From: an uncultured Lachnospiraceae bacterium
GTDB lineage: Bacteria > Bacillota > Clostridia > Lachnospirales > Lachnospiraceae
Direction: 5' to 3'
Length of the DNA stretch: 39,449 nt
Assembly: GCA_902761225.1 (NCBI GenBank)
Contig: CACWJQ010000019.1
Span: 1 to 39,449 of the forward strand
The position numbers were made by a program, and so were the translations under genes. Of the stretch, positions 1 to 23,128 are shown piece by piece (position 1 is the stretch's first letter; every line of letters begins with the position of its first letter). The notes under the pieces were generated by a model, which ran no database searches, was not told the origin of the DNA, and saw only the letters and a program-made list of their open reading frames with translations.

Positions 1-1
1 A

Positions 2-499
2 TATTCGGTTGCTCAGCAGATCACATATTATGAGAGGGTTAGCCTTCTGAGACTTATACGTGGCAAGGGATACTCCGTAGATTTGTATACTAAGAATATT
101 ACCGAATCGGATCTGCAACTATTAAAGGATATTAGGATTCATAAAGAGTTGTCCTATGGAATTGAAATGCCAATTCTTTTTAAATCAAGTAGGATCAATC
201 TTAATGTGACACTGAAGATATTAAGGAGCGGCATTCCGTTGAGGGCTCTCGATATAATGGGCTGTGGCGGATTCCTGCTTACTAATTTACAACCGGAAAT
301 CTCGGAATATTTTAAGGATGGAAAAGACGTTGTAATGTATAAAAGTTTGGAGGAAGCGGTAGATAAAGCATGCTATTATCTTGCTCATGATGATGAACGT
401 AAAAACATTGCCCGAAATGGTTATAAGGTAGTAAGTGACGGGTTTCGCTTTGAGGATCGGATACATAATATGTTCGTGCTAGCTGGAATGGAATGTTAG
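2..499 (+). CDS. CgeB-like glycosyltransferase, C-terminal part (5' end outside window)
   Basis: The frame is open from the first bases of the window to a TAG at 497-499, so only the C-terminal ~165 residues are visible. They match the C-terminal half of the complete CgeB-like protein encoded at 1746-2891: both have SSRIN, then (L/M)TL, GIPLR, a GxGGFxLTN stretch and a YYL(A/S)HD(D/E)ER segment near the end. This is the Glyco_trans_1_2 type of GT-B C-terminal domain, which binds the sugar nucleotide. The gene runs rightward and converges with the leftward pair that ends at 542. Its acceptor is unknown; a role in surface glycan or flagellin decoration is inferred from the LicD and glycosyltransferase neighbours. 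A TTG at 83 is only an internal codon, not a convincing start. Confidence 0.8.
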   Translation, partial: YSVAQQITYYERVSLLRLIRGKGYSVDLYTKNITESDLQLLKDIRIHKELSYGIEMPILFKSSRINLNVTLKILRSGIPLRALDIMGCGGFLLTNLQPEISEYFKDGKDVVMYKSLEEAVDKACYYLAHDDERKNIARNGYKVVSDGFRFEDRIHNMFVLAGMEC

Positions 500-541
500 G
501 ACTGACTCTTGCTGATGCATTAAAAGATGATCATATTTGTA

Positions 542-1729
542 TCATTTTACGAAGCTGTATCTGTTCATTAAATCCTGAAGTGAGTGTATTTCAGTGAAGA
601 CGCTAGATGTGCCACTATTCATCATTTCGCGCCTATATTGATTAAAACATCCCACCAGAATCCTGAAGGTCCTATCATCATAATAGTTCCTGAAAAAAGT
701 ATTGGCTGAAATGAGCCACCAGGCTTTTTTGAAATCTTCATCTATAAAGGATTGTTCAAAAGACTTTATGGTTTCAATGACCGCATTTTGATAGTCTCCA
801 TGTGCAATCATCTCAAGATGGTTTAATGGGATGTTGGTAACAAATGGCCATATACTTTTATATTTTTCAAATACGGATACAGAGTATATTCCGTTACTGT
901 GAAGAGTGATCATACCTTCGACAGAACCAAATAATTCCTTGATGTTGGTTTCTGATTTTATTGCTTCGCTCTTGTATTTGTCATAGATAGATGGGAGAGA
1001 AAAATTAACAGGCACCCATTTATCAATCCATACTTGAAATGTAAGATCTTTCCAATTGGAATCTGCCTTTGATGAAATAAATCTTTCTTCGGAATACCTG
1101 CATATTCTTATGGAGCAATTATCCATTTCTGATAATCTGACAAAAAGGCTTAACGTTTGATTGAAATTGTTGTTTTCTGAAATGTTGTATTTTTCCTTGT
1201 ATCTATCCCAATCAACCGGTTTTAACATGGTGCTTCTTTTTCTTATGACTGATTCCCAGTTAGTGGACATGACAGCATAGAGGCGGTAAAACTCAACAGG
1301 GTCAGTATATATATCCTGAAATACATTTTCTCCTACATCCCATCTGGCATATTCATTAGCTGCGATTATTACATCATGATCTTTGTCTATAGCCTTGCAT
1401 AATTCAACTATAAAAGGCTCATCAAAACAAACTCTGTCTTTACAGGGCCAGATATAATCATAATCCTTTGGAAGACCGTATCCCTGAAGTATCATTAAGT
1501 GTTTGTGATCACCACTTATAGCTGCGTGAGCATCGATATAGTAGAGGTTGGAAGCACCATTACTGATGATGGATGACACCATATTCTTTGTGGAATCATC
1601 ATCACTGTCATCATATATGCATATATCAATGCCGTGAGTGGCATAAGTCGTCAGGCATCTGTCAAGAACCTCACTCATTGCTTCGACATGATTATGTGTT
1701 AAGTAGCAGCAGGCAATGCTGTTTTTCAT
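542..1729 (-). CDS. GT2-like glycosyltransferase
   Basis: 395 residues. The N-terminus reads like a GT-A family 2 transferase: a YLTHN start to the first strand, then IYDDSDDDST at about residues 38-47, in the place where GT2 enzymes carry the nucleotide-binding NDGSxDxT motif. There is no clear QXXRW motif and no transmembrane segment, so it is probably a cytosolic, non-processive transferase. The C-terminal ~200 residues are not recognised. The start at 1729 is supported by a GGAGG Shine-Dalgarno seven bases upstream. It follows the CgeB-like gene (1746-2891) by 16 bp, so the two are co-transcribed. Codon use favours A/T in the third position, unlike most of the window. Donor and acceptor cannot be read from the sequence. 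Confidence 0.75.
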   Translation of the reverse strand: MKNSIACCYLTHNHVEAMSEVLDRCLTTYATHGIDICIYDDSDDDSTKNMVSSIISNGASNLYYIDAHAAISGDHKHLMILQGYGLPKDYDYIWPCKDRVCFDEPFIVELCKAIDKDHDVIIAANEYARWDVGENVFQDIYTDPVEFYRLYAVMSTNWESVIRKRSTMLKPVDWDRYKEKYNISENNNFNQTLSLFVRLSEMDNCSIRICRYSEERFISSKADSNWKDLTFQVWIDKWVPVNFSLPSIYDKYKSEAIKSETNIKELFGSVEGMITLHSNGIYSVSVFEKYKSIWPFVTNIPLNHLEMIAHGDYQNAVIETIKSFEQSFIDEDFKKAWWLISANTFFRNYYDDRTFRILVGCFNQYRREMMNSGTSSVFTEIHSLQDLMNRYSFVK

Positions 1730-1745
1730 TTCCGGCCTCCGTTGA

Positions 1746-2891
1746 TCAGATGATCAGTATTTTGGGTAATAGAACATCATACGAAAAAATCTTCTCAGCA
1801 GCTTTGCGTCCGCATCTTGCTATCTGCTCACGCTCTTCATCATGAGACAGGTAATATTCTGCCTTATCAAGCATGTCATCATGACTTTCAAACCAGACAA
1901 GTTCTCTGCTGTTTTCAAAGTATCCGGACAGCTCGGTCTGATAATTCGTGAGGCAGAATCCTCCTGCTCCGAGAATGTCAATGACACGTAAGGGTATTCC
2001 GGTGTGGATGCTTCTGAGAGTCATGTTTATATTGATCCTGCTTGAAGCAAAAATCTGTGGCATTTCCGTATAGTAATCAGCTGTTCCGAGATAGTTCACC
2101 TTAATATCTGCAGGCGGCTCAGCACCTGAATATAGGTCAACGGAATAATGCTGGCCCAGGAGTGAAAGAAGATTTTTTCTTTCATTCACAGTGACTTTTT
2201 TTCTGAGCATATCGCAGATCACATCTCTTTTGATACTTCTGAATCCTTTTCCAAGATCTGCGTTTACGTATTTTTCTATCTCTCCCATAATCTCAGGAGT
2301 TATCGTACATGATGCAAGGTCCATACCGTAGATCATTTCCTGAGCCTTTATGATCGCATCAAGATACCCTTTTAAATAATCCGGGAGATACGAAATCTGA
2401 TCATAAAAATTATGCTCATCATTATAGAGGGAGCCGATAAATGTAATATCGTGTTCGTAACTTATGTTTTCCTGTGTGATCAGTTTATTTAATCTGTAGG
2501 TGTTCACGGGAAGAGGCATATAATCGACGGTCTCAAATCCCTGCGATCTGTAGATCTCGGATAAGGCATAATCGAATACATATACTTTGTTGCAGGAATT
2601 GCCGAGTGTGTCGGATTGAAGAGTATAATGCGGACAGTCATAGACCCAGGATATATAAGGAATTCCGGTATTCTGTGCCACTATTGAAAGAAGCGGAAAA
2701 TAATCAAAAGAGAAGATGCAATCATATGAAGATTTATGTATTTCGGCTGTGAGTGCTTCTGTGAAAGAAGGATCCTCAGAATATGATCTGGCTGTCTTGG
2801 ACCAGACTTTCACCTTGTGGCCGAGCCTTTCCATGCTCTCCACACAATCATCTTTGCTGTTTTCGTTCCAGTAATAATATAGGATATTCAT
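1746..2891 (-). CDS. CgeB family glycosyltransferase
   Basis: 381 residues, close to the usual length for CgeB-type proteins (DUF3880-like N-terminal domain plus Glyco_trans_1_2 C-terminal domain). The N-terminus MNILYYYWNEN and the segment YISWVYDCPHYTL (about residues 81-93) are typical of the family. The C-terminal half has SSRININMTL, GIPLR and GAGGFCLTN, shared with the partial gene at 2-499, so the two are paralogues lying either side of the GT2-like gene. It is the first gene of a leftward pair. No good Shine-Dalgarno precedes the start. A possible extended -10 (TGC then TATATT, minus strand, 2932-2937) lies in the 5' region. Role: sugar transfer to a surface polymer or protein (inference). 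Confidence 0.8.
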   Translation of the reverse strand: MNILYYYWNENSKDDCVESMERLGHKVKVWSKTARSYSEDPSFTEALTAEIHKSSYDCIFSFDYFPLLSIVAQNTGIPYISWVYDCPHYTLQSDTLGNSCNKVYVFDYALSEIYRSQGFETVDYMPLPVNTYRLNKLITQENISYEHDITFIGSLYNDEHNFYDQISYLPDYLKGYLDAIIKAQEMIYGMDLASCTITPEIMGEIEKYVNADLGKGFRSIKRDVICDMLRKKVTVNERKNLLSLLGQHYSVDLYSGAEPPADIKVNYLGTADYYTEMPQIFASSRININMTLRSIHTGIPLRVIDILGAGGFCLTNYQTELSGYFENSRELVWFESHDDMLDKAEYYLSHDEEREQIARCGRKAAEKIFSYDVLLPKILII

Positions 2892-2982
2892 AATTATTTT
2901 GGGATAGATGGTTGAAGTATGATGTGATTCAAATATAGCACATCCGGGTCAAATAATGTACTTTTGGAGAAGGCAAAGGGTG

Positions 2983-2988
2983 TATAAT
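2983..2988 (+). promoter_or_regulatory. TATAAT -10 element upstream of the LicD/GT-B gene
   Basis: A perfect TATAAT lies 49 bp before the ATG at 3037. No good -35 is seen at 17 bp. If used, transcription would start near 2995, which rules out the upstream ATG at 2956 and supports translation from 3037. Confidence 0.4.
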
Positions 2989-3036
2989 TTAATTGATAGA
3001 TATGAAAACGCTCTTTCAAGGCTGGGAAGGCAAAGT

Positions 3037-5334
3037 ATGAAGTTTGAAAACACTTATTACCAGGATGAAGTCAGGGAGAATTTTTACATACCTGGCATGA
3101 TCAAACGGTCATGGGCATCTCAGATTGAGATTCTGGAAAAAGTCAGTGATATTTGCACAAGACATGATATAAGATGGTTTGCTGATTATGGAACCCTTCT
3201 CGGTGCGGCACGTCATCACGGTTTTATTCCATGGGATGATGATCTTGATATCTGTATGTTGAAGGATGATTATGACAGATTCCTGGAAATAGCCGAAAAA
3301 GAGCTGCCTGAAGGCTATCGCATTTTGAATATCTATAAAGAACCTTCATATGCTAATTTCCTGACACGTATTGTTAATCATAGTGTGATAGATACGAGTG
3401 AGAGCTTTTTGGCTGAGAATCATGGATTTCCTTATGTCTCCGGCATTGACATTTTTCCGATTCATTATCTTTACAATGATGAAGCTATGGAAAACGAAAG
3501 ACAGCAGAAGGCCAAGGAGATCTATAGTCTTCTGAAGAATCTGATCACTTCCGGAAAACATACTTCATCGGAAGAAAAGAAAACAGTAGATAAGATTGAG
3601 CAGATAAGCGGGTTTAAGATAGGTAATTATGTTTCTTTGGAAAACGCGGTATACAGAATACTTGATACCATGTATTCTGTTACTCCTTCCAAGGATGCAG
3701 AATATGTCTCTCTGATAAGATTCTGGATAGAACTGAAAAGCCACAGATTCCCTGTTTCAATATATAAGGATACTGTCAGGTTACCGTTTGAAAATTCATA
3801 TATTAATGTTCCTGCCGGGTATGAGCAACTGCTTAGACTTGTATATGGAAATTGGGAGAGTGCCAATAAGCATGGAGGACTCCATGATTATCCGTTTTAT
3901 CTGGATCAGGAACGTGAATTGGCAGCTCACAGAAACGACAGGGTTCCGTATCTCTATAGTTATGATAAATCGGATACGATCAGACCTGGAATTGTGAATG
4001 ATGATGGGAATTTCGTGATATTGGAAACCATACACAAAGCCCATTCCATGATTGAAATGCTGGTGAAGTCAAACGGGATCGAGCAGTGTTCATCACTCCT
4101 CAGCGGATGCCAGAATCTGGCTATAAAGATCGGAGAGGATATAGAGCATGAATTTGGGAGCTGCGGATATGAAACGGTTCATTTGCTGGAGGGCTACTGT
4201 GAAGCAATCTACAATTTCAGTCAGGCTTTGCAGGATGATGAATCCGGTCAGGATGAGTTTCTTTCCCATTTGAATTCCCTGAATGCTTATCATGTGATGA
4301 TAAGCAGCTCTTATGAGAGCCTCAGGAAGAGTGAGCGGATATTTGTTATTTCAACTGAGCGTGAATATATTGCTGCACTTGAACTTGCCGGAAATTATGA
4401 TGGCGATCAGGTAAAAAGAGTATGTCTGATGCCTGTACCACGATATGCAAAGGATTGGCATGGAAAGCTTACATCAGAATACAGCATATATGAAATGGTC
4501 AGAAGTGAATTCACTGAAAAGGTAAGTGAAAATCAGGCGGCTTTATCCCAGGTTGAACTGATCGATTACAGATCCTTTGATTTTAATAAGCATGAAGCGG
4601 AATTCTGTTTTTTTGATCCATTTGATGAATATGGCGAGGGAACAACCATTCATCCTTTCTTTTATGCATCTAATCTTAGGAAATATACTGAGAAACTGAC
4701 TTATTTCCATATCATACCCTGTAGCCCTCCGGCAAGTGATGATGAAAAGGGGTTGTCAAATGCCGGGCGTTACATAGTGTCTCCCGGAGTTGTTATGGCA
4801 GACAGGGTATATGTTCCCGGCGGGGAAATGAGCAAATTGTATCATAAACAATTATCTGTTGTTGATGAGACTGCTGATGTTGAACTTTGGAAAAAAAAGA
4901 TTTCTGTTTTCGAATGGGATGCAGATGGCAAAACTTACCCACATCGTCTGGCGGGTAAAACTAATGTGACCTCGGAAAAGAAAATGATACTATTCTATGT
5001 TAGTATATCTTCTGTGTATACTTATGGAGAAGGCATCATTGATAAATTACGTAAAGTGATGGATACATTTGCCGAAAGCAGTGATAGGATACTGGTGCGA
5101 TGGGTTGCTGATGCAGGATTTGGTGATGGTATGAGATCAATATGTCCATCGTTAATGGATAGATATATGGGAATCGTTGATGATTTCACTAAGAGGCAAC
5201 TTGGAGAGTATATTGTGGATGATGGATCGGATCTGATAAACGGCTGCGATGCCTATTACGGATCGGGCGGTTACTTCCTGAATCAGTGTGTTATCAGAGG
5301 GATTCCTGCTATGGTCTGGAATATAGAGATGTAA
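3037..5334 (+). CDS. LicD family protein fused to a GT-B (CDP-glycerol transferase-like) domain
   Basis: 765 residues from ATG 3037, preceded by GGAAGG. This start aligns with the N-termini of the two LicD paralogues downstream; an in-frame ATG at 2956 has no Shine-Dalgarno. Residues ~1-330 are a LicD domain with GTLLG (52-56) and WDDDLD (66-71), the nucleotidyltransferase-fold metal-binding signature used to add phosphorylcholine or related phospho-groups to glycans. Residues ~430-765 look like a GT-B domain of the CDP-glycerol:glycerophosphotransferase type: HIIPCSPP near 554, MADRVYVPGGEM near 585, KKMILFYVS near 648, then DGSDLINGCDAYYGSGG near 729. LicD proteins are usually ~270-350 residues, so the fusion more than doubles the length. 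The linker (330-430) is mostly helical. The fusion suggests coupled glycan phospho-modification (inference). Confidence 0.75.
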   Translation: MKFENTYYQDEVRENFYIPGMIKRSWASQIEILEKVSDICTRHDIRWFADYGTLLGAARHHGFIPWDDDLDICMLKDDYDRFLEIAEKELPEGYRILNIYKEPSYANFLTRIVNHSVIDTSESFLAENHGFPYVSGIDIFPIHYLYNDEAMENERQQKAKEIYSLLKNLITSGKHTSSEEKKTVDKIEQISGFKIGNYVSLENAVYRILDTMYSVTPSKDAEYVSLIRFWIELKSHRFPVSIYKDTVRLPFENSYINVPAGYEQLLRLVYGNWESANKHGGLHDYPFYLDQERELAAHRNDRVPYLYSYDKSDTIRPGIVNDDGNFVILETIHKAHSMIEMLVKSNGIEQCSSLLSGCQNLAIKIGEDIEHEFGSCGYETVHLLEGYCEAIYNFSQALQDDESGQDEFLSHLNSLNAYHVMISSSYESLRKSERIFVISTEREYIAALELAGNYDGDQVKRVCLMPVPRYAKDWHGKLTSEYSIYEMVRSEFTEKVSENQAALSQVELIDYRSFDFNKHEAEFCFFDPFDEYGEGTTIHPFFYASNLRKYTEKLTYFHIIPCSPPASDDEKGLSNAGRYIVSPGVVMADRVYVPGGEMSKLYHKQLSVVDETADVELWKKKISVFEWDADGKTYPHRLAGKTNVTSEKKMILFYVSISSVYTYGEGIIDKLRKVMDTFAESSDRILVRWVADAGFGDGMRSICPSLMDRYMGIVDDFTKRQLGEYIVDDGSDLINGCDAYYGSGGYFLNQCVIRGIPAMVWNIEM

Positions 5335-5381
5335 TTAATATGATCATGTTCACTCTAGTCTAAGGTGTGGTCAGAGGGTTT

Positions 5382-6392
5382 ATGGATTTCCCCGTAAAAT
5401 ACAGGTTTACAGATGAATACTTCCGGGATGAGGAACGATGTGGTTTCATGGTGTCTGAATGCATGAAACGGTATTGGGCTGCATCGTTGCATAGTCTCGA
5501 GATATTCGATGACATATGCAGAAGGCATGGGCTTAAATACTGGGCTGCATGTGGAACTATGCTGGGTACAATCAGGCACAAAGGTTTTATCCCGTGGGAT
5601 GATGATCTGGATATCGGTATGCTTAGGGAGGATTTTAATCAATTCCTCAGGATAGCCCCATATGAACTGCCTTCAGATTACACTGTTTCATTTAAAGATG
5701 ATCCCCCCAGACACTCGTACAATGGAATTGCTGTAGTCAATTCTCTGCGTGCTGTATCTTTCGATGAGAAGATATTGAATGATTACTATTATTGTCCGTT
5801 TCCGGTAGGGTTTGATGTGTACCCTTATGATTATGCGCCGGATGACAGAAATGAAAGGGACATCTGGAGAGGGGAGTATTTAAGGGTTCTTCTTGCTTTT
5901 AAATATCTTGACGAACATACAGATGCGGATGATGAAGCTGATGAGGCGTTCAGAAAATTAGGGTTTGAGCCTGCGTATGTATGGGAAAACAAGGATGAGA
6001 TCAGGAACAGGCTCCTCGAGATGGCTGAGAATATTGCGGGCAGAGGCATGCCCGGGTGCGGATCATACGTAACCAGGCTGATATTTCTTGCGATGCATAA
6101 TGCCTATCCTCCTTTAAAGAAGGAGTGGTATGAGGATATTGTCGAGCTTCCTTTTGAAACAGGAACAATCCCTGCTCTTAGAAATATTGAGGATGCTGTG
6201 TTGATGACTTTTGGTGCCGAGTGGGTTATGCCTGTGCAGGGAACTATGTCTCATAATTATCCCTTGTACAGAAGGGATATCAGATATATGATCGGTTTTC
6301 TTGAAAAAGGCGGTCTGAAACTGTCATACCTGCCGAATCAATTGCAATATATTGTAAGAGAGGCAGACAGGCTGGGTATAGAACACAGTTAA
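5382..6392 (+). CDS. LicD family phosphotransferase
   Basis: 336 residues. ATG 5382 is chosen over GTG 5367 because AGAGG lies just upstream and the resulting N-terminus (then DEYFRDEER) aligns with the next LicD gene. GTMLG lies at 59-63 and WDDDLD at 72-77, the LicD catalytic signature. A conserved C-terminal ELPFETG-type motif is shared with both neighbouring LicD proteins. No membrane segment or signal peptide is seen, so it should act in the cytoplasm on a nucleotide-activated or lipid-linked glycan precursor. It starts 47 bp after the LicD/GT-B fusion and ends 17 bp before the third LicD gene, so all three appear to be one transcript. The exact group transferred is not determinable. Confidence 0.85.
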   Translation: MDFPVKYRFTDEYFRDEERCGFMVSECMKRYWAASLHSLEIFDDICRRHGLKYWAACGTMLGTIRHKGFIPWDDDLDIGMLREDFNQFLRIAPYELPSDYTVSFKDDPPRHSYNGIAVVNSLRAVSFDEKILNDYYYCPFPVGFDVYPYDYAPDDRNERDIWRGEYLRVLLAFKYLDEHTDADDEADEAFRKLGFEPAYVWENKDEIRNRLLEMAENIAGRGMPGCGSYVTRLIFLAMHNAYPPLKKEWYEDIVELPFETGTIPALRNIEDAVLMTFGAEWVMPVQGTMSHNYPLYRRDIRYMIGFLEKGGLKLSYLPNQLQYIVREADRLGIEHS

Positions 6393-6409
6393 GTAGGGAT
6401 TGGAGTTAA

Positions 6410-7474
6410 ATGGTCAATTATTCTATAAATGAAGAATATTTTCATGATGAGGAAAGAAGTGGATTCAGGATTTCCTCGTTGATGAAGAGATGCTGGGCTG
6501 CCCAGTTGAAAACACTGGAGGATTTTGACAGGGTCTGCTCAAAGCACAATCTTAAATGGTATGCATTCTGCGGAACTCTCCTTGGTGCTGTCAGACACAA
6601 GGGCTTTATTCCCTGGGATGATGATATCGATATCTGCATGCTGAGGGGCGATTACAATATGTTCCTTCATTATGCGAAAAAAGAAATGTCCGGGTATTTG
6701 TTTGAAAATTACGATTCATATACTCCGGAAGAAAACCGAAACTATGATTTTCAGGGTATTACAAGGATTAACAATACATATACCGCGGATTTTAATACCG
6801 AGTATCTGGATGCACACCATGGTTTCCCGTACACAGTCGGCATAGATCTTTACCCTCTTGATTACGTGCCTCGGGATGAAAAAGAGTATGAAATGGCTCA
6901 AAATATTTTCGGATATACCATACTTGTCGGATATAAGTATAAAAGTCTTAACTGGCCGAGATATGGAAAACCTGATGCTGATTATGAGAATATAAACCTC
7001 GATGAAGCATATGAAGCCATTTATAATGCCACGGGAATGAAGATTGATAAAAGCGGTGACGTACTCAGGCAACTTAATGATATTGCAATCAATGTCGCTT
7101 CGTATACCAAAAGTAAGGATTCTGACAGAGTTGCATGTATGATGCATGCTGCTTTTGGCGAGAAACACATGGTTTTCCCTAAAAATGCCTTTCAAAAACG
7201 TCTTGAGGTTCCATTTGAGACGGGAAGCATCTATATACCTGGAGATGCTGATGCGGTCTTGTCCCGAAATTACGGCTCTGATTACATGACCCCCAACACC
7301 CATGTCCCGCACGATTATCCTTATTACAAGAAGCAGGAGCGCTGGGTCAGGGATTATGTCATAAGAAATCCTGAGATGGCGCCGTACATGCCGGCTTACT
7401 ACATAGCAGACGTATATGACGAAGATCCTGATAAAAAGATTTTGCTGGATAAGATTTATGGAAATAGCAGGTGA
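6410..7474 (+). CDS. LicD family phosphotransferase
   Basis: 354 residues, third LicD paralogue in a row. A GGAG lies just upstream of ATG 6410. Motifs: GTLLG (55-59), RHKGFIPWDDDIDICML with WDDDID at 69-74, and a VPFETGS segment in the C-terminal third. The region between carries HHGFPYTVGIDLYP, also present in the LicD/GT-B fusion (HGFPYVSGIDIFP), suggesting that these two are closer to each other than either is to the middle copy. It is the last gene before a strong terminator. Soluble and cytosolic by sequence. Three tandem copies fit modification of several positions in one repeat unit, but this is inference. Confidence 0.85.
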   Translation: MVNYSINEEYFHDEERSGFRISSLMKRCWAAQLKTLEDFDRVCSKHNLKWYAFCGTLLGAVRHKGFIPWDDDIDICMLRGDYNMFLHYAKKEMSGYLFENYDSYTPEENRNYDFQGITRINNTYTADFNTEYLDAHHGFPYTVGIDLYPLDYVPRDEKEYEMAQNIFGYTILVGYKYKSLNWPRYGKPDADYENINLDEAYEAIYNATGMKIDKSGDVLRQLNDIAINVASYTKSKDSDRVACMMHAAFGEKHMVFPKNAFQKRLEVPFETGSIYIPGDADAVLSRNYGSDYMTPNTHVPHDYPYYKKQERWVRDYVIRNPEMAPYMPAYYIADVYDEDPDKKILLDKIYGNSR

Positions 7475-7482
7475 TAATGATT

Positions 7483-7520
7483 GGAAGGAGAAATCCGAAG
7501 AGGAGCTCCTTCCTTTTTTT
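7483..7520 (+). terminator. Rho-independent terminator of the LicD operon
   Basis: An eight-base stem, GGAAGGAG at 7483-7490 with CTCCTTCC at 7506-7513, is followed directly by seven T (7514-7520). The 15-base loop is long but A/G-rich. It starts nine bases after the stop codon of the third LicD gene. Confidence 0.8.
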
Positions 7521-7639
7521 GCACTCTGTACTCGAACGAGGTCTTCAAAGTTAATTGGGAATCGGTGTGTCCTGAATACGCCGGTAAAAACGTCCTCTCT
7601 TTGCTGAAATTATCATTATATAGAGGTTTCTAAAATGTA

Positions 7640-7827
7640 TGCTACAATATCTATTTTTCTTATCACTATTGTTAAACGTTTGACATCTTTTGTGGTCATT
7701 TTTCACAAAAACACCCCCTAAACTTCTTTAAACTTTATGCACTCAAAAATCCAATAAAAGGTTTACAAGAACCTGCATTATTGGTAAACTGAATCTGCAG
7801 GAATGGTAGTATACAAGTCTGACCATT
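7640..7827 (+). promoter_or_regulatory. Control region of the gntR-sugar importer operon
   Basis: The 381 bases between the LicD and gntR genes hold no gene but several signals. An extended -10 (TGC then TACAAT) is at 7640-7648. A LacI/CcpA-type palindrome, TGTTAAAC/GTTTGACA, is at 7670-7685 with one mismatched pair and a central CG. A better promoter is TTTACA (7762-7767), 17-bp spacer, TAAACT (7785-7790). Inverted repeat GTTTAC (7761-7766)/GTAAAC (7784-7789) overlaps this promoter exactly. A second inverted repeat, AATGGT (7802-7807)/ACCATT (7822-7827), sits just downstream of the predicted start and encloses GTATAC, like operators of GntR/FCD regulators. Promoter and sites are predictions. 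Confidence 0.5.
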
Positions 7828-7855
7828 TTTGATTTTTATCCGGAAAGAGGAAAAG

Positions 7856-8533
7856 ATGGAAGTATATTCCAAGCGGCGTGGGGAAACAGCACGAGATTAT
7901 GCTCTCAGAGTCCTTAAGGGCAACATCATTTCACTCGATCTTATGCCCGGAACAGCAATCTCGGAGAATGAGCTGGCGACCGAACTCGGAATATCCAGAA
8001 CACCGGTGAGAGAGGCTGTTATCGAACTGGCCAAGGCCTATCTCATAGAGATCTATCCTCAGCGTGGAAGCTTTGTATCGCTGATAGATCCCAAGATGGT
8101 TGAAGAGGCCAGGTTCCTTAGGCGGATCACTGATACCGCGGTCATAGAAGCGGCATGTGACGAGATCGATGAGAAGGGTATAGCTGCTCTCGAAGACAAT
8201 GTATCACTTCAGGAATTTTACCTTTCAAAGGGAATGACTGAGAAGATATTTGACCTCGACAATAAGTTCCATAAGGGAATCTACGAGGCGGTTAAGAAGG
8301 ATATAGTATATGAGATCCATTCGACTCTGATGATACATTTCGACAGAGTGCGTACACTTTCTGTGGAGACTGTGAAGGATTTCAAGGTGGTCGGAGACCA
8401 CCGCAAGATGCTCGAGGCCATCAAGGCTGGGGATAAGGTGACAGCGGCTCAGCTTGTAGAAAAGCATTTGAACCGTTATCAGATAGATGAAAAAGAAATA
8501 AGAAGTCAGAGACCTGAATACTTCAAGGCATAA
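7856..8533 (+). CDS. GntR family transcriptional regulator, FCD subfamily
   Basis: 225 residues from ATG 7856, which has AGAGG upstream; an in-frame TTG at 7829 lies inside the operator-like repeat and is rejected. The N-terminal winged helix-turn-helix spans about residues 8-75, with ENELATELGISRTPVREAVIEL (helix-turn-helix and recognition helix) typical of GntR. The C-terminal all-helical FCD ligand-binding domain has the metal-site pattern: D and H in DLDNKFHKG, H in GDHRKML and H in VEKHLNRY. It lies ten bases ahead of a two-permease sugar importer, so it probably regulates that operon, and its own gene as the first cistron. FCD regulators often sense sugar acids such as uronates, which would suit a pectin- or xylan-degrading gut bacterium, but the ligand is inference. 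Confidence 0.9.
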   Translation: MEVYSKRRGETARDYALRVLKGNIISLDLMPGTAISENELATELGISRTPVREAVIELAKAYLIEIYPQRGSFVSLIDPKMVEEARFLRRITDTAVIEAACDEIDEKGIAALEDNVSLQEFYLSKGMTEKIFDLDNKFHKGIYEAVKKDIVYEIHSTLMIHFDRVRTLSVETVKDFKVVGDHRKMLEAIKAGDKVTAAQLVEKHLNRYQIDEKEIRSQRPEYFKA

Positions 8534-12445: not shown

Positions 12446-12519
12446 GGGATCATAGCTCAGCTGGGATGAGCGTCCGCTTGACGTGCGGGAGGTCACAGGT
12501 TCGAACCCTGTTGGTCCCA
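12446..12519 (+). tRNA. tRNA-Val (anticodon GAC)
   Basis: A 74-base cloverleaf. The acceptor stem GGGATCA pairs with TGGTCCC (one G-U), and the discriminator is A at 12519. The anticodon arm is TCCGC, loop TTGACGT, GCGGG, placing GAC in the anticodon position, which reads GUC and GUU. The T arm holds the standard TTCGAAC loop. The CCA end is not encoded. It is a single tRNA gene with its own promoter and terminator. It is the cognate ligand of the T-box at 22849-23128. Confidence 0.97.
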
Positions 12520-12527
12520 CTTGTACA

Positions 12528-12573
12528 GCCTGAAGGTTCAGGCAAAAAGAGACACCGGCCGGTGTCTCTTTTT
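12528..12573. terminator. Bidirectional terminator after tRNA-Val
   Basis: A small perfect hairpin, GCCTGAA/TTCAGGC (12528-12543), is followed by a perfect 30-bp palindrome at 12544-12573: five A, GAGACACCGG, CCGGTGTCTC, five T. The A-tract on one side and T-tract on the other let it terminate transcription from both directions. To the right it stops the tRNA transcript. To the left it would stop a leftward gene whose last codons appear to survive at 12572-12658. Confidence 0.9.
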
Positions 12574-17057: not shown

Positions 17058-18251
17058 GTGGATAAAATGAAAAAAACAGCACCGGTAACCGACAACAGCA
17101 CAAGGAATTACGGACTGGATGTCCTTAGATGCACTGCCATGATAATGGTGGTAATACTCCATTTTCTCGACAAAGGCGGCATTCTGAGGTCACTTCCTCT
17201 GATGTCACTTTCCGATAAGGGGACCTTCAGTGCGGCTGATACCGCTGCGTGGCTCCTTGAGGCCCTCTGCATTGTTGCGGTCAATCTCTATATGCTTATG
17301 AGCGGTTATCTTCTCTATAGCACAAAATTCAGGCTCAGCAGACTTCTTAAGCTGGTTGCAAAAGTATGGCTCTATTCGGTCATCATAGGCTTTGCCGGGA
17401 TAGCCCTCGGAACCTGCAGTGAACCTGTGAATACATATTTCCTGCTGAGACTTCTGCTTCCTGTTTCCATGAACACCTACTGGTTCATGACCGCATATAT
17501 ATTCTTCTACCTGCTTGTGCCGGTTCTGGGGATGGCGGCAAAGGCCATGAACAGGTCTCAGATGAAGCTTCTGCTTGCAGGACTGCTGTTTTTTCATGTG
17601 ATCATCAAGACCGTTGTTCCCGCGCAGCTCACCACCGATGCGTCCGGAATGGATGCCATGTGGTACATCGTCCTGTACTTTGTTGCCGTGTATATCAGGC
17701 GCTTTCCCGGGAAGGGGAGAAGGGCGGCAGTTTACTTTATCCTGTACGTGGTCGGAGCGCTTCTTATAGCCAATGAAGCCTTCATTCTCAGGGAAGTGTA
17801 TCTTAAGACGGGAAGACTGTCCTATATCCTCAATATCAGCTATTCCTACAACCACCTTCTGGTGCTCTTTGCTTCTGTGTCACTTTTCCTTGCATTCCTC
17901 AGGCTGAAGATCTCTGAAAGGGCCGGGAAGGTGTTCGCATTCCTTGGAAAATACTCCCTGGGAGTTTACCTTCTCCACGAGAATCTTTCCATCAGATATG
18001 CATGGCAGCCCCTGCTTGGATGCGACAAAGCAACAACTGTTATCTCAATAATCGGAATTTCGGTTTTTGCAGGGATCATCGTGTTTGTAACAGGCGTTAT
18101 CGTTGACTGGGCCGGAAGTAACATCTTCGGCTTCGCCCTCGGCATCCTTAAAAAAGCACCTGTTTTTAAAAGCCTGTCAGCGGGTATCTTAAAGGCTGAT
18201 AAGATATTTTCCGGAGCAGACACTTCTTCAGACGGAGATTCAAATGGCTGA
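17058..18251 (+). CDS. Acyltransferase 3 family membrane protein
   Basis: 397 residues with about ten membrane segments. The first reads RNYGLDVLRCTAMIMVVILH: the R-G-D-LR-A...H pattern that defines acyltransferase 3 (OafA/WecH) enzymes, including the catalytic His. These proteins O-acetylate or O-acylate cell-surface polysaccharides or peptidoglycan. The start is uncertain: GTG 17058 and ATG 17067 are nine bases apart and neither has a strong Shine-Dalgarno. It lies 83 bases after the membrane glycosyltransferase-like gene and overlaps the helicase gene by eight bases. Context suggests modification of the glycan built by the upstream genes. Confidence 0.88.
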   Translation: MDKMKKTAPVTDNSTRNYGLDVLRCTAMIMVVILHFLDKGGILRSLPLMSLSDKGTFSAADTAAWLLEALCIVAVNLYMLMSGYLLYSTKFRLSRLLKLVAKVWLYSVIIGFAGIALGTCSEPVNTYFLLRLLLPVSMNTYWFMTAYIFFYLLVPVLGMAAKAMNRSQMKLLLAGLLFFHVIIKTVVPAQLTTDASGMDAMWYIVLYFVAVYIRRFPGKGRRAAVYFILYVVGALLIANEAFILREVYLKTGRLSYILNISYSYNHLLVLFASVSLFLAFLRLKISERAGKVFAFLGKYSLGVYLLHENLSIRYAWQPLLGCDKATTVISIIGISVFAGIIVFVTGVIVDWAGSNIFGFALGILKKAPVFKSLSAGILKADKIFSGADTSSDGDSNG

Positions 18252-20757
18252 TAAGGATACCAGGGATGTTATAACCGTATCGGTCAGGGAGATCGTCGAG
18301 TTCATACTCAGAAGCGGGGATATAGACAACAGCGGAGCGGGACCGGCAGGCGTTGACGTGATGCTTCAGGGCGGGAGAGTTCACCGCATGATCCAGCAGT
18401 CGAGAGGTACCGGCTACAGTGCCGAGGTTCCCCTCAGGATACGCATTCCCGGTGATAAATACGATATTGTGATCGAAGGCCGCGCTGACGGCATTCTTAC
18501 GGACTCAGGGAGTGATCCCGGAGTTACTGTCGAAGAGATCAAGGGTACATACAGAAATATCGAGAAAATGAAGGAACCTGTGCCGGTGCATCTGGCTCAG
18601 GCCCTTTGTTATGCCCATATGTACATGTCCCTTCCGGAAAATAAAGACCTTCCGGAAATAGGCATCAGGATGACATACGTCAACATGGACGATGAGACCG
18701 TAAGATGCTTTGAATCCGTACACCTGAGGGACGAAGTCGGTAAATGGTTTGATGACCTTGTGGGAAAATACCGCAAATGGGCGGACCTTCGAAGGGAATG
18801 GAATGAGATACGTACCCGTTCCGTGAAGGAGACGGTCTTTCCCTATGATTACAGGCCGGGCCAGAGAAATCTTGCGGTGAGCGTGTATCAGACCGTATAT
18901 GAGAAGAAGAAGCTCTACCTCGAGGCGCCCACGGGCTGCGGGAAGACTCTGTCCGTGCTGTTCCCCGCGGTAAAGGCGATGGGTGAAGGACTCTGTGACC
19001 GCATCTTCTACCTTACCGCCAAGACCATAACAAGGACCGCTCCCGAAGAGGCTTTTGAGATACTCCGCGCCGGGGGGCTCAGGTTCAAGACCGTGACCCT
19101 TACTGCGAAGGAGAAGATCTGTTTCCTTGAAAAAACAGACTGTAATCCCATAGGCTGCAGATATGCCAGGGGTCACTTTGACAGGATCAACGACGCCCTC
19201 TATGCCCTTGTATCCGAAGGTACATCCTTTACCAGGGAAAGGATCCTTGAATACGCCGAAAAATACAGGGTCTGTCCCTTTGAACTATCCCTGGATGCCG
19301 CACTTTTTGCAGACGGCATCATATGCGATTACAACTACCTCTTTGACCCCCATGCAAGGCTGAAGAGATTCTTTGAAAGCGGTACTTCCGAGGAATATAT
19401 ATTCCTTGTCGACGAAGCCCATAACCTGCCCTCCAGGGCAAGAGAGATGTACAGTGCCTGTTCATGCGAGTCGGAACTGAAGGAACTGAAGAAGCTGATC
19501 ACCCTTTCATCTGAAGGCGCTGTAGACAGTATTTTTGTGAAAAAAGAATATTCCCGCAAGATCGTATCCCGTATAGGCAATACTCTTTCAAAGCTGAAGG
19601 CGGTCAGGGATGATTACGGCACGGATACGGTGATAGCCGGCTTTGAGAAGGACTGGTATAAGTATGAGACAGGGATCGAGGATCTGGTAAAGAGCCTTGA
19701 AAGACTGCATCAGACCATGTCCGATTATATGGAGGAGCGCGAAAAGCCCGGAATGATCCAGAGCAAGCTGAAGGATAAGCTCCTTGACCTGTACTTTGGC
19801 ATATCCGATTTTCTGGAAGTATTTGAAGACATGGGCGACGACTATGTCATATATGATACATACTCCCGCGAGACCGGGCTTATAGTAAAGCTGTTCTGTA
19901 CCGATCCGAGAAGGAAGATAGGAGAGTGCCTTGCAATGGGCCGCTCTTCGGTGCTGTTTTCGGCTACAATGCTTCCGATACAGTACTATAAAGGGCTTCT
20001 TGGAGGCAACCCGGAGGATTATGAGGTCTATGCGGAATCTGTCTTTGATCCGGCCAACAGGGGCATATTCATAGCATCCGATGTAACTACCAGGTATAAG
20101 GACAGATCGGAGGATGAATTCCTAAGGACAGCGGATCATATCTCCAGGATTGTAAGGCCCAAAAAGGGCAATTACATGGTATTCTTCCCATCCTATGCCT
20201 ATATGTACAGGGTCTATGAGATATACCGGGCTGCATTCCTTACACCGGGTGACGAGCTGCTCCTGCAGCAGGAAAATATGACGGAATCGGAGAAGGAAGA
20301 CTTCCTTGCGTGCTTTGAGACAGGACCGGAGGAGGGTGGATACAGTGACTCCCTGATAGGCTTCTGTGTTATGGGCGGTATGTTCTCGGAGGGTATAGAT
20401 CTTAAGGGAGATTCCCTGATCGGCGTGATCTGTGTCGGGCCCGGAATACCGGGAGTTGACCTGGAGCATGATATTTTGAGGGAATTCTATGACGGATATG
20501 AGACTCCGGGCCACGAATCCGGGTCCGGATATGAGTATTCCTACATGTATCCCGGGATGAACAAGGTTCTCCAGGCTGCGGGAAGAGTTATCAGGACGGA
20601 GGATGACAGAGGGATAGTGGTGCTGCTCGATAAGAGATTCCTCAGCACCGGATATAAGAGACTGTTTCCCAGAGAGTGGACTTCGGTAAAGATTACCGAT
20701 CTGGAACATGTCAGAGATGACGTCACCGGATTCTGGGAAAGTCGGAAGGATTACTGA
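18244..20757 (+). CDS. Fe-S XPD/DinG-like helicase with N-terminal PD-(D/E)XK nuclease domain
   Basis: 837 residues; GGAG lies upstream of ATG 18244. Residues ~1-180 form a RecB/Cas4-type nuclease fold: H47, GRAD with D82, EIK (98-100), Q119 and Y123 fall in the expected order. Residues ~200-835 are a superfamily 2 XPD/DinG helicase: RPGQ (204-207), Walker A APTGCGKT (228-235), four cysteines C293, C300, C305 and C344 spaced like the XPD 4Fe-4S cluster, DEAH (390-393), and motif VI QAAGRVIRTEDDRG near residue 775. It probably unwinds 5'-3' and cleaves DNA, acting in repair or recombination. It overlaps the acyltransferase gene by eight bases and is the last gene before a strong terminator, but has no functional link to its neighbours that I can see. 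Confidence 0.9.
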   Translation: MADKDTRDVITVSVREIVEFILRSGDIDNSGAGPAGVDVMLQGGRVHRMIQQSRGTGYSAEVPLRIRIPGDKYDIVIEGRADGILTDSGSDPGVTVEEIKGTYRNIEKMKEPVPVHLAQALCYAHMYMSLPENKDLPEIGIRMTYVNMDDETVRCFESVHLRDEVGKWFDDLVGKYRKWADLRREWNEIRTRSVKETVFPYDYRPGQRNLAVSVYQTVYEKKKLYLEAPTGCGKTLSVLFPAVKAMGEGLCDRIFYLTAKTITRTAPEEAFEILRAGGLRFKTVTLTAKEKICFLEKTDCNPIGCRYARGHFDRINDALYALVSEGTSFTRERILEYAEKYRVCPFELSLDAALFADGIICDYNYLFDPHARLKRFFESGTSEEYIFLVDEAHNLPSRAREMYSACSCESELKELKKLITLSSEGAVDSIFVKKEYSRKIVSRIGNTLSKLKAVRDDYGTDTVIAGFEKDWYKYETGIEDLVKSLERLHQTMSDYMEEREKPGMIQSKLKDKLLDLYFGISDFLEVFEDMGDDYVIYDTYSRETGLIVKLFCTDPRRKIGECLAMGRSSVLFSATMLPIQYYKGLLGGNPEDYEVYAESVFDPANRGIFIASDVTTRYKDRSEDEFLRTADHISRIVRPKKGNYMVFFPSYAYMYRVYEIYRAAFLTPGDELLLQQENMTESEKEDFLACFETGPEEGGYSDSLIGFCVMGGMFSEGIDLKGDSLIGVICVGPGIPGVDLEHDILREFYDGYETPGHESGSGYEYSYMYPGMNKVLQAAGRVIRTEDDRGIVVLLDKRFLSTGYKRLFPREWTSVKITDLEHVRDDVTGFWESRKDY

Positions 20758-20785: not shown

Positions 20786-20831
20786 AAGCCGGCTTCGGAA
20801 GGGTAAAATGCCCTCCGAAGCCGGCTTTTTT
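20786..20831 (+). terminator. Rho-independent terminator after the helicase
   Basis: AAGCCGGCTTCGG pairs with CCGAAGCCGGCTT, extended by GGG/CCC past a one-base bulge, with a seven-base loop, and ends in six T (20826-20831). It closes the operon starting at 12713. Confidence 0.93.
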
Positions 20832-21044
20832 GTATATGACGACAGTGTCGCCATGTGACATTACTGTCATTTTTGAAATCGGCATTCAACCTGCTTTTGG
20901 GCTAATTTTTAACATTCAGGTAGACATAATATAATATAACAAACAATATCCTAAAATTTCCGCCCCGGATCAGGTGCACAGTTATGTTGCCTTGGCATGA
21001 TTTTATGCCAGTCATAATTTAATGATATTACATATGTTTTTAAA

Positions 21045-21064
21045 AGGAATTGACGTCAATTCCT
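21045..21064. repeat. Perfect 20-bp palindrome next to the DnaA-box-like sites
   Basis: AGGAATTGAC/GTCAATTCCT is perfectly symmetrical with no spacer, centred at 21054.5 on GACGTC. It ends two bases before the first DnaA-box-like nonamer. It looks like a binding site for a symmetrical dimer. The protein is unknown. Confidence 0.75.
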
Positions 21065-21066
21065 GA

Positions 21067-21096
21067 TGTGGATAAGCCTGTGGATAAGGTGGATAA
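21067..21096 (-). promoter_or_regulatory. Cluster of three DnaA-box-like nonamers
   Basis: TGTGGATAA (reverse complement of the DnaA box TTATCCACA) occurs perfectly at 21067-21075 and 21079-21087, and with one mismatch (GGTGGATAA) at 21088-21096. A weaker 7/9 copy in the opposite direction is at 21115-21123. All three strong copies point the same way, spaced 12 and 9 bases apart. A/T-rich DNA follows. No dnaA or dnaN gene is in the window. Confidence 0.65.
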
Positions 21097-21311
21097 TCAA
21101 GAAAACCACGATGTTTATTCACTTTGTGACACGTTGTTTAAAAACACTCATGTCATATTTCACATGATATTTTGCATCATTTATTTCGTCACATTAGTAA
21201 CTGTATGTAACAAAGCGAAGATAGGTTTGGCCATTATGTAAATAAAAATACACAGTGTTATTATAAGAAAAGTGTCAACCATCGTGTTTACATAATCACA
21301 TAAAAATCGCT

Positions 21312-21345
21312 AAAAAATAGAGCAGTCCATAGTGAACTGCTCTAT
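21312..21345 (-). terminator. Terminator of the amylase gene
   Basis: On the minus strand, a perfect 10-bp stem (ATAGAGCAGT/ACTGCTCTAT, 21317-21345) with a nine-base loop is followed by a T-tract (21312-21316). It lies 53 bases after the GH13 stop codon. Confidence 0.85.
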
Positions 21346-21397: not shown

Positions 21398-22708
21398 TCA
21401 ACGTTCGCACTTAAGGAACTTAACGCTGTAGGGCTGCATCCTGGTCCCCCCACCGAAGTCAAAATCCTCCCCTGTGATCAGATCAACGGCCTTTCCGCAA
21501 CCTGCATCAAAATGGGCGGTATATTCGTTCTCATCTATATTGATGGCAACCAGGACTCTTTCATGCTCGGAGCATCTTTGGAATATACACTGCCTGTTGG
21601 TGAGAACAAGGGATCTGAAATCTCCGTAATTAAGTGCCTCGGATGACTTTTTGGCCTCTGCCATTGCTTTTATGGTATCGGTAAGGCTGTTCCACTGTGG
21701 AGCATCGAAGCATTTCCTAAGTGCGGGATCCCCCTCTGACTTGTTGGCCTTCTCACCCCACTCGCTGCCGTAGTAGATCATGGGTATGCCCGGCATGCCG
21801 AAGATGAATCCGTACATGAGAGGGAGATGCTTCTCATTGTTGACCACACTTGCAGCTCTTGTGACATCGTGGTTGTCCACGAATGACCAGAGGTGACGTC
21901 CCTTGTAGAGCGTCCAGTTCTCGGGGCCGAACTGCCTGAGCAGGGAATGGACTATCTCGAAGCAGTTATAGCTGTTCATGCTTGAGAAGATTCCCTTATA
22001 GCACTCATAGTTTGTCGCACTGTCAAGACCGGCGTTCAGCCATTTGTTGTAATCACCGTGGAGAAGCTCGCCTCCGAGGAAGAAATCCTTCTTGATCCCG
22101 TCGACATGGGATCTTAATCTTCTTATGAAGTCTTCGGGAAGACAGTAGGCCACATCCAGCCTTAGTCCGTCGATATCATAGTCCCTGATCCAGCCTGATA
22201 CGGCATCCATAAGGTGGTTCACCACATCGGGATTCCACAGATTGAGCTTTACAAGGTCGTAATTGCCTTCCCATCCCTCGTACCAGAGGCCGTCGTTATA
22301 ATTGGAATTCCCGTCAAATGCTATCCTTGAAAACCACGATACATAGGGAGAACCTTCTCTCTTTTCCAGGACATCCTTAAATGCCCAGAAGCCGCGGCCC
22401 ACATGGTTGAACACCCCGTCCAGCACAACCTTTATACCTTCAGCATGCAGAGCCCGGCATACATCTGCAAAATCCTCGTTGGTGCCAAGTCTTGTATCGA
22501 TCAGGTTGTAGTCCCTGGTGTTATATCCGTGGGTGTCCGATTCGAATACAGGTGAAAAATACACAGCCGTGATCCCCAACTTCTTAAGATGAGGTATCCA
22601 TTCCTTTACCTTGAGTATCCTGTGCTCCAAAACACCGTCATTTTCGAAGGGAGCCCCGCAGAATCCAAGGGGATAGATCTGATAAAATACGCTTTCAAAT
22701 GCCCACAT
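21398..22708 (-). CDS. GH13 family alpha-amylase/neopullulanase-like glycosidase
   Basis: 436 residues from ATG 22708, preceded by AAAGGAG; an in-frame upstream start at 22780 would add 24 residues overlapping the promoter and is rejected. All four GH13 regions are present: DGVFNH (97-102), GLRLDVA with nucleophile D185, GGELLHG with acid/base E214, and FVDNHD with D281. The (beta/alpha)8 barrel fills most of the length, and a short C-terminal beta domain follows. No signal peptide, so it acts in the cytoplasm, probably on imported maltodextrin or cyclomaltodextrin, or on glycogen. The spacing of GVFNHVG and the small size fit intracellular neopullulanase or cyclomaltodextrinase relatives without the N-terminal dimerisation domain. 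It is transcribed alone, divergent from valS. Confidence 0.9.
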   Translation of the reverse strand: MWAFESVFYQIYPLGFCGAPFENDGVLEHRILKVKEWIPHLKKLGITAVYFSPVFESDTHGYNTRDYNLIDTRLGTNEDFADVCRALHAEGIKVVLDGVFNHVGRGFWAFKDVLEKREGSPYVSWFSRIAFDGNSNYNDGLWYEGWEGNYDLVKLNLWNPDVVNHLMDAVSGWIRDYDIDGLRLDVAYCLPEDFIRRLRSHVDGIKKDFFLGGELLHGDYNKWLNAGLDSATNYECYKGIFSSMNSYNCFEIVHSLLRQFGPENWTLYKGRHLWSFVDNHDVTRAASVVNNEKHLPLMYGFIFGMPGIPMIYYGSEWGEKANKSEGDPALRKCFDAPQWNSLTDTIKAMAEAKKSSEALNYGDFRSLVLTNRQCIFQRCSEHERVLVAINIDENEYTAHFDAGCGKAVDLITGEDFDFGGGTRMQPYSVKFLKCER

Positions 22709-22763
22709 AAAAGTCTCCTTTTGACCGGGCCGATTCCCGCGAAGGTTTGCCCGGGACGATAAT

Positions 22764-22769
22764 ACTATA
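22764..22769 (-). promoter_or_regulatory. Extended -10 of the amylase gene
   Basis: On the minus strand TGG then TATAGT gives an extended -10 (hexamer 22764-22769). The -35 position is weak. Between it and the start codon lies a repeat CCGGGC (22725-22730)/GCCCGG (22749-22754) that would form a leader hairpin. Confidence 0.5.
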
Positions 22770-22795
22770 CCACATTTCACCGTTCCCTGTTTTTC

Positions 22796-22824
22796 TTGAC
22801 AAAACAGTTACTATCACCTATCAT
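22796..22824 (+). promoter_or_regulatory. Promoter of valS
   Basis: TTGACA (22796-22801), a 17-bp spacer and TATCAT (22819-22824; 5 of 6 consensus). The start near 22831 gives a ~345-base leader holding the T-box. Confidence 0.85.
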
Positions 22825-22848
22825 TAGTCACAATTATTGCAATAAACT

Positions 22849-23128
22849 GCGCACATAATATATATGGCTGTGACGAAGAAGAGTACGTGATAACCACCCG
22901 ACAGAGAAGGAAGCATTACAGGCTGAGAGCTTCCGCAGGCAGGATCCCGGAAAGTCGCTTCCGAGCCGGATGGTGAAGGTTTTAACTGTGTAGTCATCCC
23001 GTCGATCCACGAAACGGTGTAATGAGGCAGAAAGCATCAGCAGTAAGAAAGAGTGTTTTCTGTAAACAAAGGTGGTACAGCGTAATTTACGCCCTTTGCA
23101 TTCCTGACAGGAGTGCAAGGGGCTTTTT
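22849..23128 (+). promoter_or_regulatory. T-box riboswitch of valS (tRNA-Val sensing)
   Basis: The T-box core GGTGGTACAGCG lies at 23071-23082 inside an antiterminator (AAAGG and GCG on the 5' side, CGCCCTTTG on the 3' side). The competing terminator is a 15-bp stem at 23091-23123 followed by TTTTT (23124-23128). Stem I lies upstream, with an AGTA-type specifier-loop motif near 22882. The probable specifier is GUC at 22993-22995, followed by A as usual; GUA at 22990-22992 is a less likely alternative. The UGGU bulge (23073-23076) would pair with the uncharged tRNA end, U23076 matching a discriminator A. Uncharged tRNA-Val would stabilise the antiterminator and turn valS on. Confidence 0.95.

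Follow-up and report, generated by a model that had tools for sequence, protein, structure and literature searches.

The intergenic island described here may well be a conserved chromosomal DnaA-assembly site, outside oriC, that several Lachnospiraceae genera have inherited beside an XPD-type helicase gene and that withdraws or inactivates DnaA. As the same site was found by the same helicase gene in about 20 related genera, away from the origin, it is probably a control point of chromosome replication that has not been described before. The island belongs to a stretch of 39,449 nucleotides (the window), in which a 640-bp gap separates the helicase gene from a GH13 amylase gene. The features of the gap and of the two genes that flank it are as follows, with the basis of each in brackets.

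18244..20757, plus strand: XPD/Rad3/DinG-type DNA helicase gene, the usual neighbour of the element (gene matches and synteny)
20786..20827, plus strand: terminator-like hairpin of the helicase gene (inverted repeat, T run after it)
20840..20869, no strand: CGACAGTGTCG (20840-20850) and TGACATTACTGTCA (20856-20869), TGAC-type palindromes just outside the element (sequence)
20920..21295, plus strand: whole conserved element, about 375 bp, bounded by outer repeats, of GTNNACATAA type on the left and GTTTACATAA on the right (11-sequence alignment)
20920..20929, plus strand: left outer motif, GTAGACATAA in the window and GTTWACATAA or GTTGACATAA in the aligned relatives (alignment, motif counts)
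20997..21006, plus strand: conserved block ATGATTTTAT, at a fixed distance upstream of the core (alignments)
21045..21064, no strand: perfect 20-bp palindrome AGGAATTGACGTCAATTCCT, two bases before box 1 (inverted-repeat search)
21051..21058, no strand: TGACGTCA inside the palindrome, the TGAC-type site that is conserved, 16 bp ahead of box 1 (alignment of relatives)
21067..21075, minus strand: DnaA box 1, TTATCCACA (TGTGGATAA on the plus strand), exact (each position at least 90% conserved in 37 cores)
21079..21087, minus strand: DnaA box 2, TTATCCACA, exact, +12 from box 1 (GTGGA invariant in 37 cores)
21088..21096, minus strand: DnaA box 3, TTATCCACC, one mismatch, +21 from box 1 (37-core alignment)
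21127..21131, plus strand: TGACA site downstream of the boxes (sequence, alignment)
21151..21155, minus strand: TGTCA, which reads TGACA on the minus strand, also downstream of the boxes (sequence, alignment)
21234..21243, plus strand: TTATGTAAAT, right inner copy of TTATGTWAAC type (alignment)
21286..21295, minus strand: TTATGTAAAC (GTTTACATAA on the plus strand), right outer motif (alignment, motif scan)
21317..21345, minus strand: terminator-like hairpin of the amylase gene (terminator prediction)
21398..22780, minus strand: GH13 amylase-family gene, found in either orientation in relatives (gene matches and loci of relatives)

The bounds of the element were set by an alignment of 11 islands of the TGACGTCA type. 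An earlier note on this DNA had described an A/T-rich, gene-free island between two terminators into which both flanking genes end, and this description held: the helicase and amylase genes converge on the gap, terminator-like hairpins lie on both sides, and the GC content of the gap was 36.6%, compared with 43-51% (in one case 42%) in the 1-kb intervals that cover the window beyond 8 kb. No open frame of at least 80 codons was present inside the element. The helicase scored 390 bits against the PADLOC model typeIV_DinG (CRISPR type IV-A associated) and matched a solved 5'-3' DNA helicase (9kqh) over nearly its full length. At the other end of the window, positions 1-8000 had a GC content of 37-42%, against 42-51% elsewhere in the window, and this contig end is possibly of different origin.

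The three DnaA-box-like nonamers of the earlier note, two of them perfect, were confirmed as a tandem array on the minus strand at 21067-21096, as was the 20-bp palindrome two bases away from them. In 5000 dinucleotide shuffles of the gap, neither the triple (three boxes with at most one mismatch each and starts spanning at most 21 bp) nor the exact pair arose once, so that the nonamers exceeded chance; a perfect 20-bp palindrome arose in 9 of the 5000. Over the whole window, boxes with at most one mismatch numbered 17 against 10.5 expected (17 or more in 4 of 100 shuffles). This excess was only mild; what stands out is how the boxes cluster. The genome search for further copies of the palindrome that the earlier note had proposed returned a single copy when up to three mismatches were allowed. 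Pairs of TTATNCACA in direct orientation, 1-26 bases apart, occurred at two places only in the same genome: the element and C16:24316. The latter (C16:24316-24356) is a close pair of exact boxes after a hairpin-like stretch and a T run, with TGTGGATAG nearby.

The core pattern was present in one copy each in 22 of the 31 genomes of the genus, including all 10 that were near-complete (completeness ≥90%, contamination ≤5%). The nine genomes without a match were all at most 84% complete, and a reversed control pattern gave no match in the 31 genomes; many of the genomes analysed are drafts. A DNA search with the island matched its own genome and 8 of the 30 others. The 3' end of the helicase gene lay upstream of the element in all 22 loci. 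The amylase gene, visible in 21 of them, ran away from the element in 12 and was inverted in 9, with the core kept; the element thus survives the inversion of its neighbour. The element is thus not simply an operator of one neighbour, in agreement with the earlier note, which had held that the signals are not operators of the neighbours, and a sole role as amylase promoter was rejected on the same grounds.

The alignment across relatives that had been suggested showed the boxes and the TGAC site at fixed spacing, which was rigid over about 100 bp. The palindrome fared differently in its parts: its TGAC-type core site was conserved and the full 20 bp were not, relatives keeping TGACGTCA or TGACA-type sites within other arms, and the full palindrome was rejected as a unit. 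Several relatives carried a CGACACTGACGT...ACGTNAGTGTCG-like sequence at the place of 20840-20869. Taken as a whole, the island (identity in 63% of aligned columns and 60% of all columns, 8 sequences) did not clearly exceed the amylase-valS gap (77% and 50%, 7 sequences; L097 was dropped because the gap is absent there), so the case for conservation rests on the blocks and their spacing. The amylase-valS gap (22781-23112 in the window) is by these figures also conserved.

Conservation was followed beyond the genus with an alignment of 37 cores, 22 from the genus and 15 from other genera. It showed a TGAC site about 16 bp before box 1, followed by three head-to-tail boxes at 0, +12 and +21. Invariant positions were TGTG-A-AA in box 1, GTGGA in box 2 and, in box 3, a single G, the fourth base when read on the plus strand; the remaining bases of box 1, the neighbours of the invariant G and the upstream TGA reached at least 90%. 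In many genera boxes 2 and 3 were weak (TGTGGAAAT, GGGGATTTC) and only box 1 was a good DnaA box. When the exact core pattern was searched against contigs of 84,980 species, 20 stretches were found, 19 titled Lachnospiraceae and one Acetatifactor, with strains P6A3 and AC2028 among them. Within the family the pattern matched 20 times in 19 genomes; two of the matches were of the window's own genus, and three others (L107, L112, L114) lay within 1.5 kb of the helicase or amylase gene. The element was not universal: among 28 amylase loci from other genera the module was upstream of the amylase in 11 and not found in 17, and some genera with the helicase-amylase pair lack it, the helicase being followed directly by the amylase in L135, L137 and L149.

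A sequence-only profile built from the 37 cores was run on 298 genomes of the family and 196 of the order, and the best 30 and the best 20 loci, respectively, were inspected, so that weaker carriers may be missed. Two of the best 30 family loci were from the genus itself and 28 from others. The 3' end of the helicase gene was directly upstream in 17 of these 28, with frames between in 3 and divergent in 1; the remainder had the amylase only (2), neither gene (4, one at a contig end) or lay at dnaA (1). These 21 helicase-linked loci spanned 20 genera, or 22 with the two amylase-only loci. Since 13 of the 28 had gone into building the profile, matches outside the training set serve as a check: 20 of 24 such same-family matches lay by the helicase gene. 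Among the best 30 these were 11 of 15, of which nine followed the helicase directly, one was divergent from it and one was separated from it by other frames; the order search added 9 of 9 new family loci, in two genera only. At E ≤0.01 the profile matched 253 of the 298 family genomes, a figure that includes oriC-type boxes and is therefore no count of the element. None of nine weaker or other family regions (8 profile matches, 1 pattern match) lay by the helicase gene, and one of them (L188) was at dnaA. Outside the family, six genomes matched the profile at E up to 1e-7 in the order search; the two loci L200 and L203, from this group, were not by the helicase gene. A genome of another family of the order (G046) had a 31-bp match to the island, outside the core.

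The position of the element was compared with that of oriC. In its own genome dnaA was on contig C21, and clusters of DnaA boxes were present upstream of dnaA at most of the 23 dnaA loci of the genus, which places oriC elsewhere than the element. The earlier note had argued against oriC and had proposed placing the site by GC skew. In a 1.04-Mb contig of one relative (G011) all 20 stretches that were sampled had negative skew, although the sign varied among 2-kb pieces close to the element; the element was 428 kb from the origin-side end of the contig (side set by the skew) and 615 kb from the other, inside one arm. In a 4.116-Mb contig of a second relative (G607) the skew changed sign at 0.5-0.75 Mb and at 2.75-3.0 Mb, and the element, at 3.934 Mb, was at about 0.43 of the origin-to-terminus arm (0.37-0.50 given the sampling). 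For this figure the first sign change was taken as the origin by its sign, not from dnaA, and the contig was assumed to close on itself; a second contig of about 0.4 Mb could shift it. The orientation of the element relative to the skew was identical in G011, G607 and the window. The argument against oriC was therefore upheld, and the oriC reading was rejected by position and skew, the element lying mid-arm in two genomes, away from origin and terminus, and not at a dnaA locus. The possibility that the cluster marks the origin of a second replicon was not supported, as no lasting skew switch was seen at the element in the G011 contig or in G607.

Two further motifs were concentrated around the core. 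In the 22 islands of the genus (8,960 bp), there were 106 copies of TGACA/TGTCA, where shuffles gave 30.2 (sd 5.1), and 35 of TTATGTWAAC (both strands counted), where shuffles gave 0.2. Copies of the latter (TTATGG also allowed) stood near -142 to -130, -95 to -78, +163 to +187 and +196 to +267 relative to the core. At 36 loci outside the genus (L180, L183, L200 and L203, which are not of the element, and L159 and L160, which are of the window's own genus, were left out), all 18 copies of TTATGTWAAC stood no more than 300 bp from box 1, with none in the other 83,886 bp; the motif was present in this range at 15 loci and absent at 21. TGACA/TGTCA had a density of 6.2 per kb near box 1 and 2.2 beyond, a comparison in which composition differs, since the outer part of these loci is mostly coding. 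The site that precedes box 1 was TGAC-N6-GTCA or nearly so in g219 and several further genera; in the window it is the TGACGTCA site inside a larger palindrome. TTATGTWAAC resembles what we take to be the XerD arm of dif, and TGAC-N6-GTCA presumably resembles the RacA site ram and matS.

The excess of TGACA and TTATGTWAAC strengthens the idea of a hub for DNA-binding proteins that the earlier note had raised; the symmetrical motifs at 20840-20869, which had contributed to that idea, overlap a terminator-like match at 20844-20862. Genome-wide, TTATGTWAAC showed no general excess over a reversed control (13 v 9, 16 v 14, 17 v 7 and 20 v 46). Inspection by eye of sites in three genomes (20 of 20 in G607, 16 of 16 in G011 and 4 of 13 in G000) revealed no XerC-like arm beside any of the 40, 3 of which were at the element. 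At G000:C58:3344-3375 (L268) two tandem TTATGTAAACC motifs, 22 bp apart, have an operator-like arrangement; a C likewise follows the motif at 10 of the 16 G011 sites.

No base pair was predicted by RNAalifold for the 37 sequences (core only) and Rfam gave no match at the element, and a structured RNA was rejected on these grounds. The rigid spacing, the survival of neighbour inversion, the foldless core and the lack of a frame of at least 80 codons point instead to a protein-DNA complex. DnaA binding, the partner proteins and the sign and mechanism of the effect are what we infer from this pattern. DnaA would bind box 1, the consensus box, and from there spread head-to-tail to boxes 2 and 3, and the TGACA-type sites and TTATGTWAAC motifs would be occupied by one or two other proteins that shape or time the complex. 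Because the site is mid-arm, its copy number would double partway through replication. By withdrawing or inactivating DnaA, like datA or the Bacillus subtilis clusters, it could prevent premature re-initiation.

We read the element as most like datA or the DnaA-box clusters of B. subtilis. The latter, reported by Okumura et al. (2012) and described in PMC5295017, PMC13220808 and PMC5742627, share with it a cluster of several boxes in intergenic DNA away from oriC in a Gram-positive bacterium, and are likewise a candidate DnaA sink. They number six and are called oriC-proximal in the title of that study, whereas the element has one core per genome, additional motifs and a helicase neighbour, and was not oriC-proximal in two genomes (in G011 it is 428 kb away from the contig end on the origin side, in G607 at about 0.43 of the arm). 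In PMC5295017 and PMC13220808, removal of the six clusters is said to cause early initiation, datA and DARS are described as absent from B. subtilis, and the existence of regulators of the DnaA ATP/ADP balance there as unknown. Reviews differ on the clusters, one giving them no significant role and another (PMC5742627) treating them as analogous to datA. The Escherichia coli datA is also non-coding, a few hundred bp long and provided with an accessory protein site (predicted here for the element), and head-to-tail DnaA assembly, as predicted for the element, is described for datA and oriC in PMC5742627. In datA, IHF binds between boxes 2 and 3 and the site is near oriC, whereas the box starts of the element are 12 and 9 bp apart and its position is mid-arm. 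The oriC of the same genus likewise has two DnaA boxes at +12 but differs in its neighbours, its larger number of boxes and its A/T-rich tract; TGACA was not in excess there, and TTATGTWAAC was absent, in 20 genomes (20 of the 23 dnaA loci; L023, L026 and L030 were omitted because the matched start was not the gene start).

The main rival to a DnaA-withdrawing site, on account of the mid-arm position, is a DARS-like reactivation site, at which ADP-DnaA would assemble, lose ADP and be recharged, so promoting initiation. DARS1 and DARS2 of E. coli also have a three-box core at fixed spacing with flanking sites, and the motifs flanking the boxes of the element could stand in for IHF/Fis sites. 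The arm position in G607 is near that of DARS2, at 0.41 of the arm when derived from the E. coli map positions (oriC 84.6, DARS2 64 and terC 34.6 min), and so fits DARS2 better than datA or the B. subtilis clusters. In DARS1 and DARS2, however, box I is opposite to boxes II and III (PMC5742627), whereas the three boxes of the element pointed one way in all 37 sequences. Because head-to-tail boxes are the type on which DnaA forms oligomers at oriC and datA, a withdrawing or inactivating site is favoured, and a reactivation site is considered unlikely. A role of DnaA as transcription factor for the downstream gene, which is the amylase at most loci, appears rather improbable. DnaA is known as such a factor (PMC4447404), and the amylase starts downstream and points away from the element not only at 12 of the 21 loci of the genus but also at many elsewhere. 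The next gene has this orientation in most other genera, where a promoter role is possible. Against this, the core remained at the nine loci with an inverted amylase, the next gene at L195 was valS, and the next long frame at L175 pointed the other way.

The TTATGTWAAC motifs, which stood on both sides of the element in two sets of loci, could also mean a hub of chromosome architecture, for instance an XerD-type or other organiser site with DnaA as one partner; XerD of B. subtilis unloads SMC at the terminus (PMC12322038). The element is not near the terminus, however, none of the 40 inspected sites resembled a full dif, and the motif was not in general excess in the genomes, and we give this reading little credence, keeping it as a lead. 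A backup or second replication origin, or the fossil of one, seems very improbable. Its tandem boxes at +12 are like the two-box module at an A/T-rich stretch upstream of dnaA in the same genome (AGTGGATAACTCGGTGGATAAG), but a third box, instead of an A/T-rich tract, follows them, and the skew did not switch lastingly at the site. A composite version of the favoured DnaA-withdrawing site is put forward more tentatively, on motif evidence: in many Lachnospiraceae genera the locus would assemble DnaA on the three boxes and two proteins on TGAC-N6-GTCA/TGACA and TTATGTWAAC, as a mid-arm, helicase-tied counterpart of datA or DARS without partner sites of IHF/Fis type, and might couple initiation to chromosome organisation.

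In open-licence literature on DnaA-box clusters in B. subtilis, on DARS and datA in Firmicutes, on DnaA in Lachnospiraceae and Roseburia and on DnaA boxes outside oriC, no such element was described in the titles and opening lines of the abstracts listed. A candidate DnaA site at one locus across about 20 genera, with rigid spacing and partner motifs, offers a cis element for testing DnaA control in gut Gram-positives, and a bait for two putative DNA-binding proteins.

Some observations on DnaA and on the rest of the window stand apart from the element. By TIGR00362 score the full-length DnaA proteins of the genus formed two groups, of about 493-517 and 444-466 bits, and the layout of the upstream boxes differed between them (loci L014-L036). 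In five other family genomes of one to few contigs (L184, L185, L186, L189 and L190), a different cluster of DnaA boxes lay about 1.6-2 kb from a gene whose product weakly resembles part of DnaA (23-28%) and is perhaps another AAA+ protein, for instance a helicase loader. Rfam gave no T-box leader anywhere in the window. A second perfect 20-bp palindrome, of other sequence, is present in the window at 12549-12568, just after a tRNA-Val gene (12446-12520).
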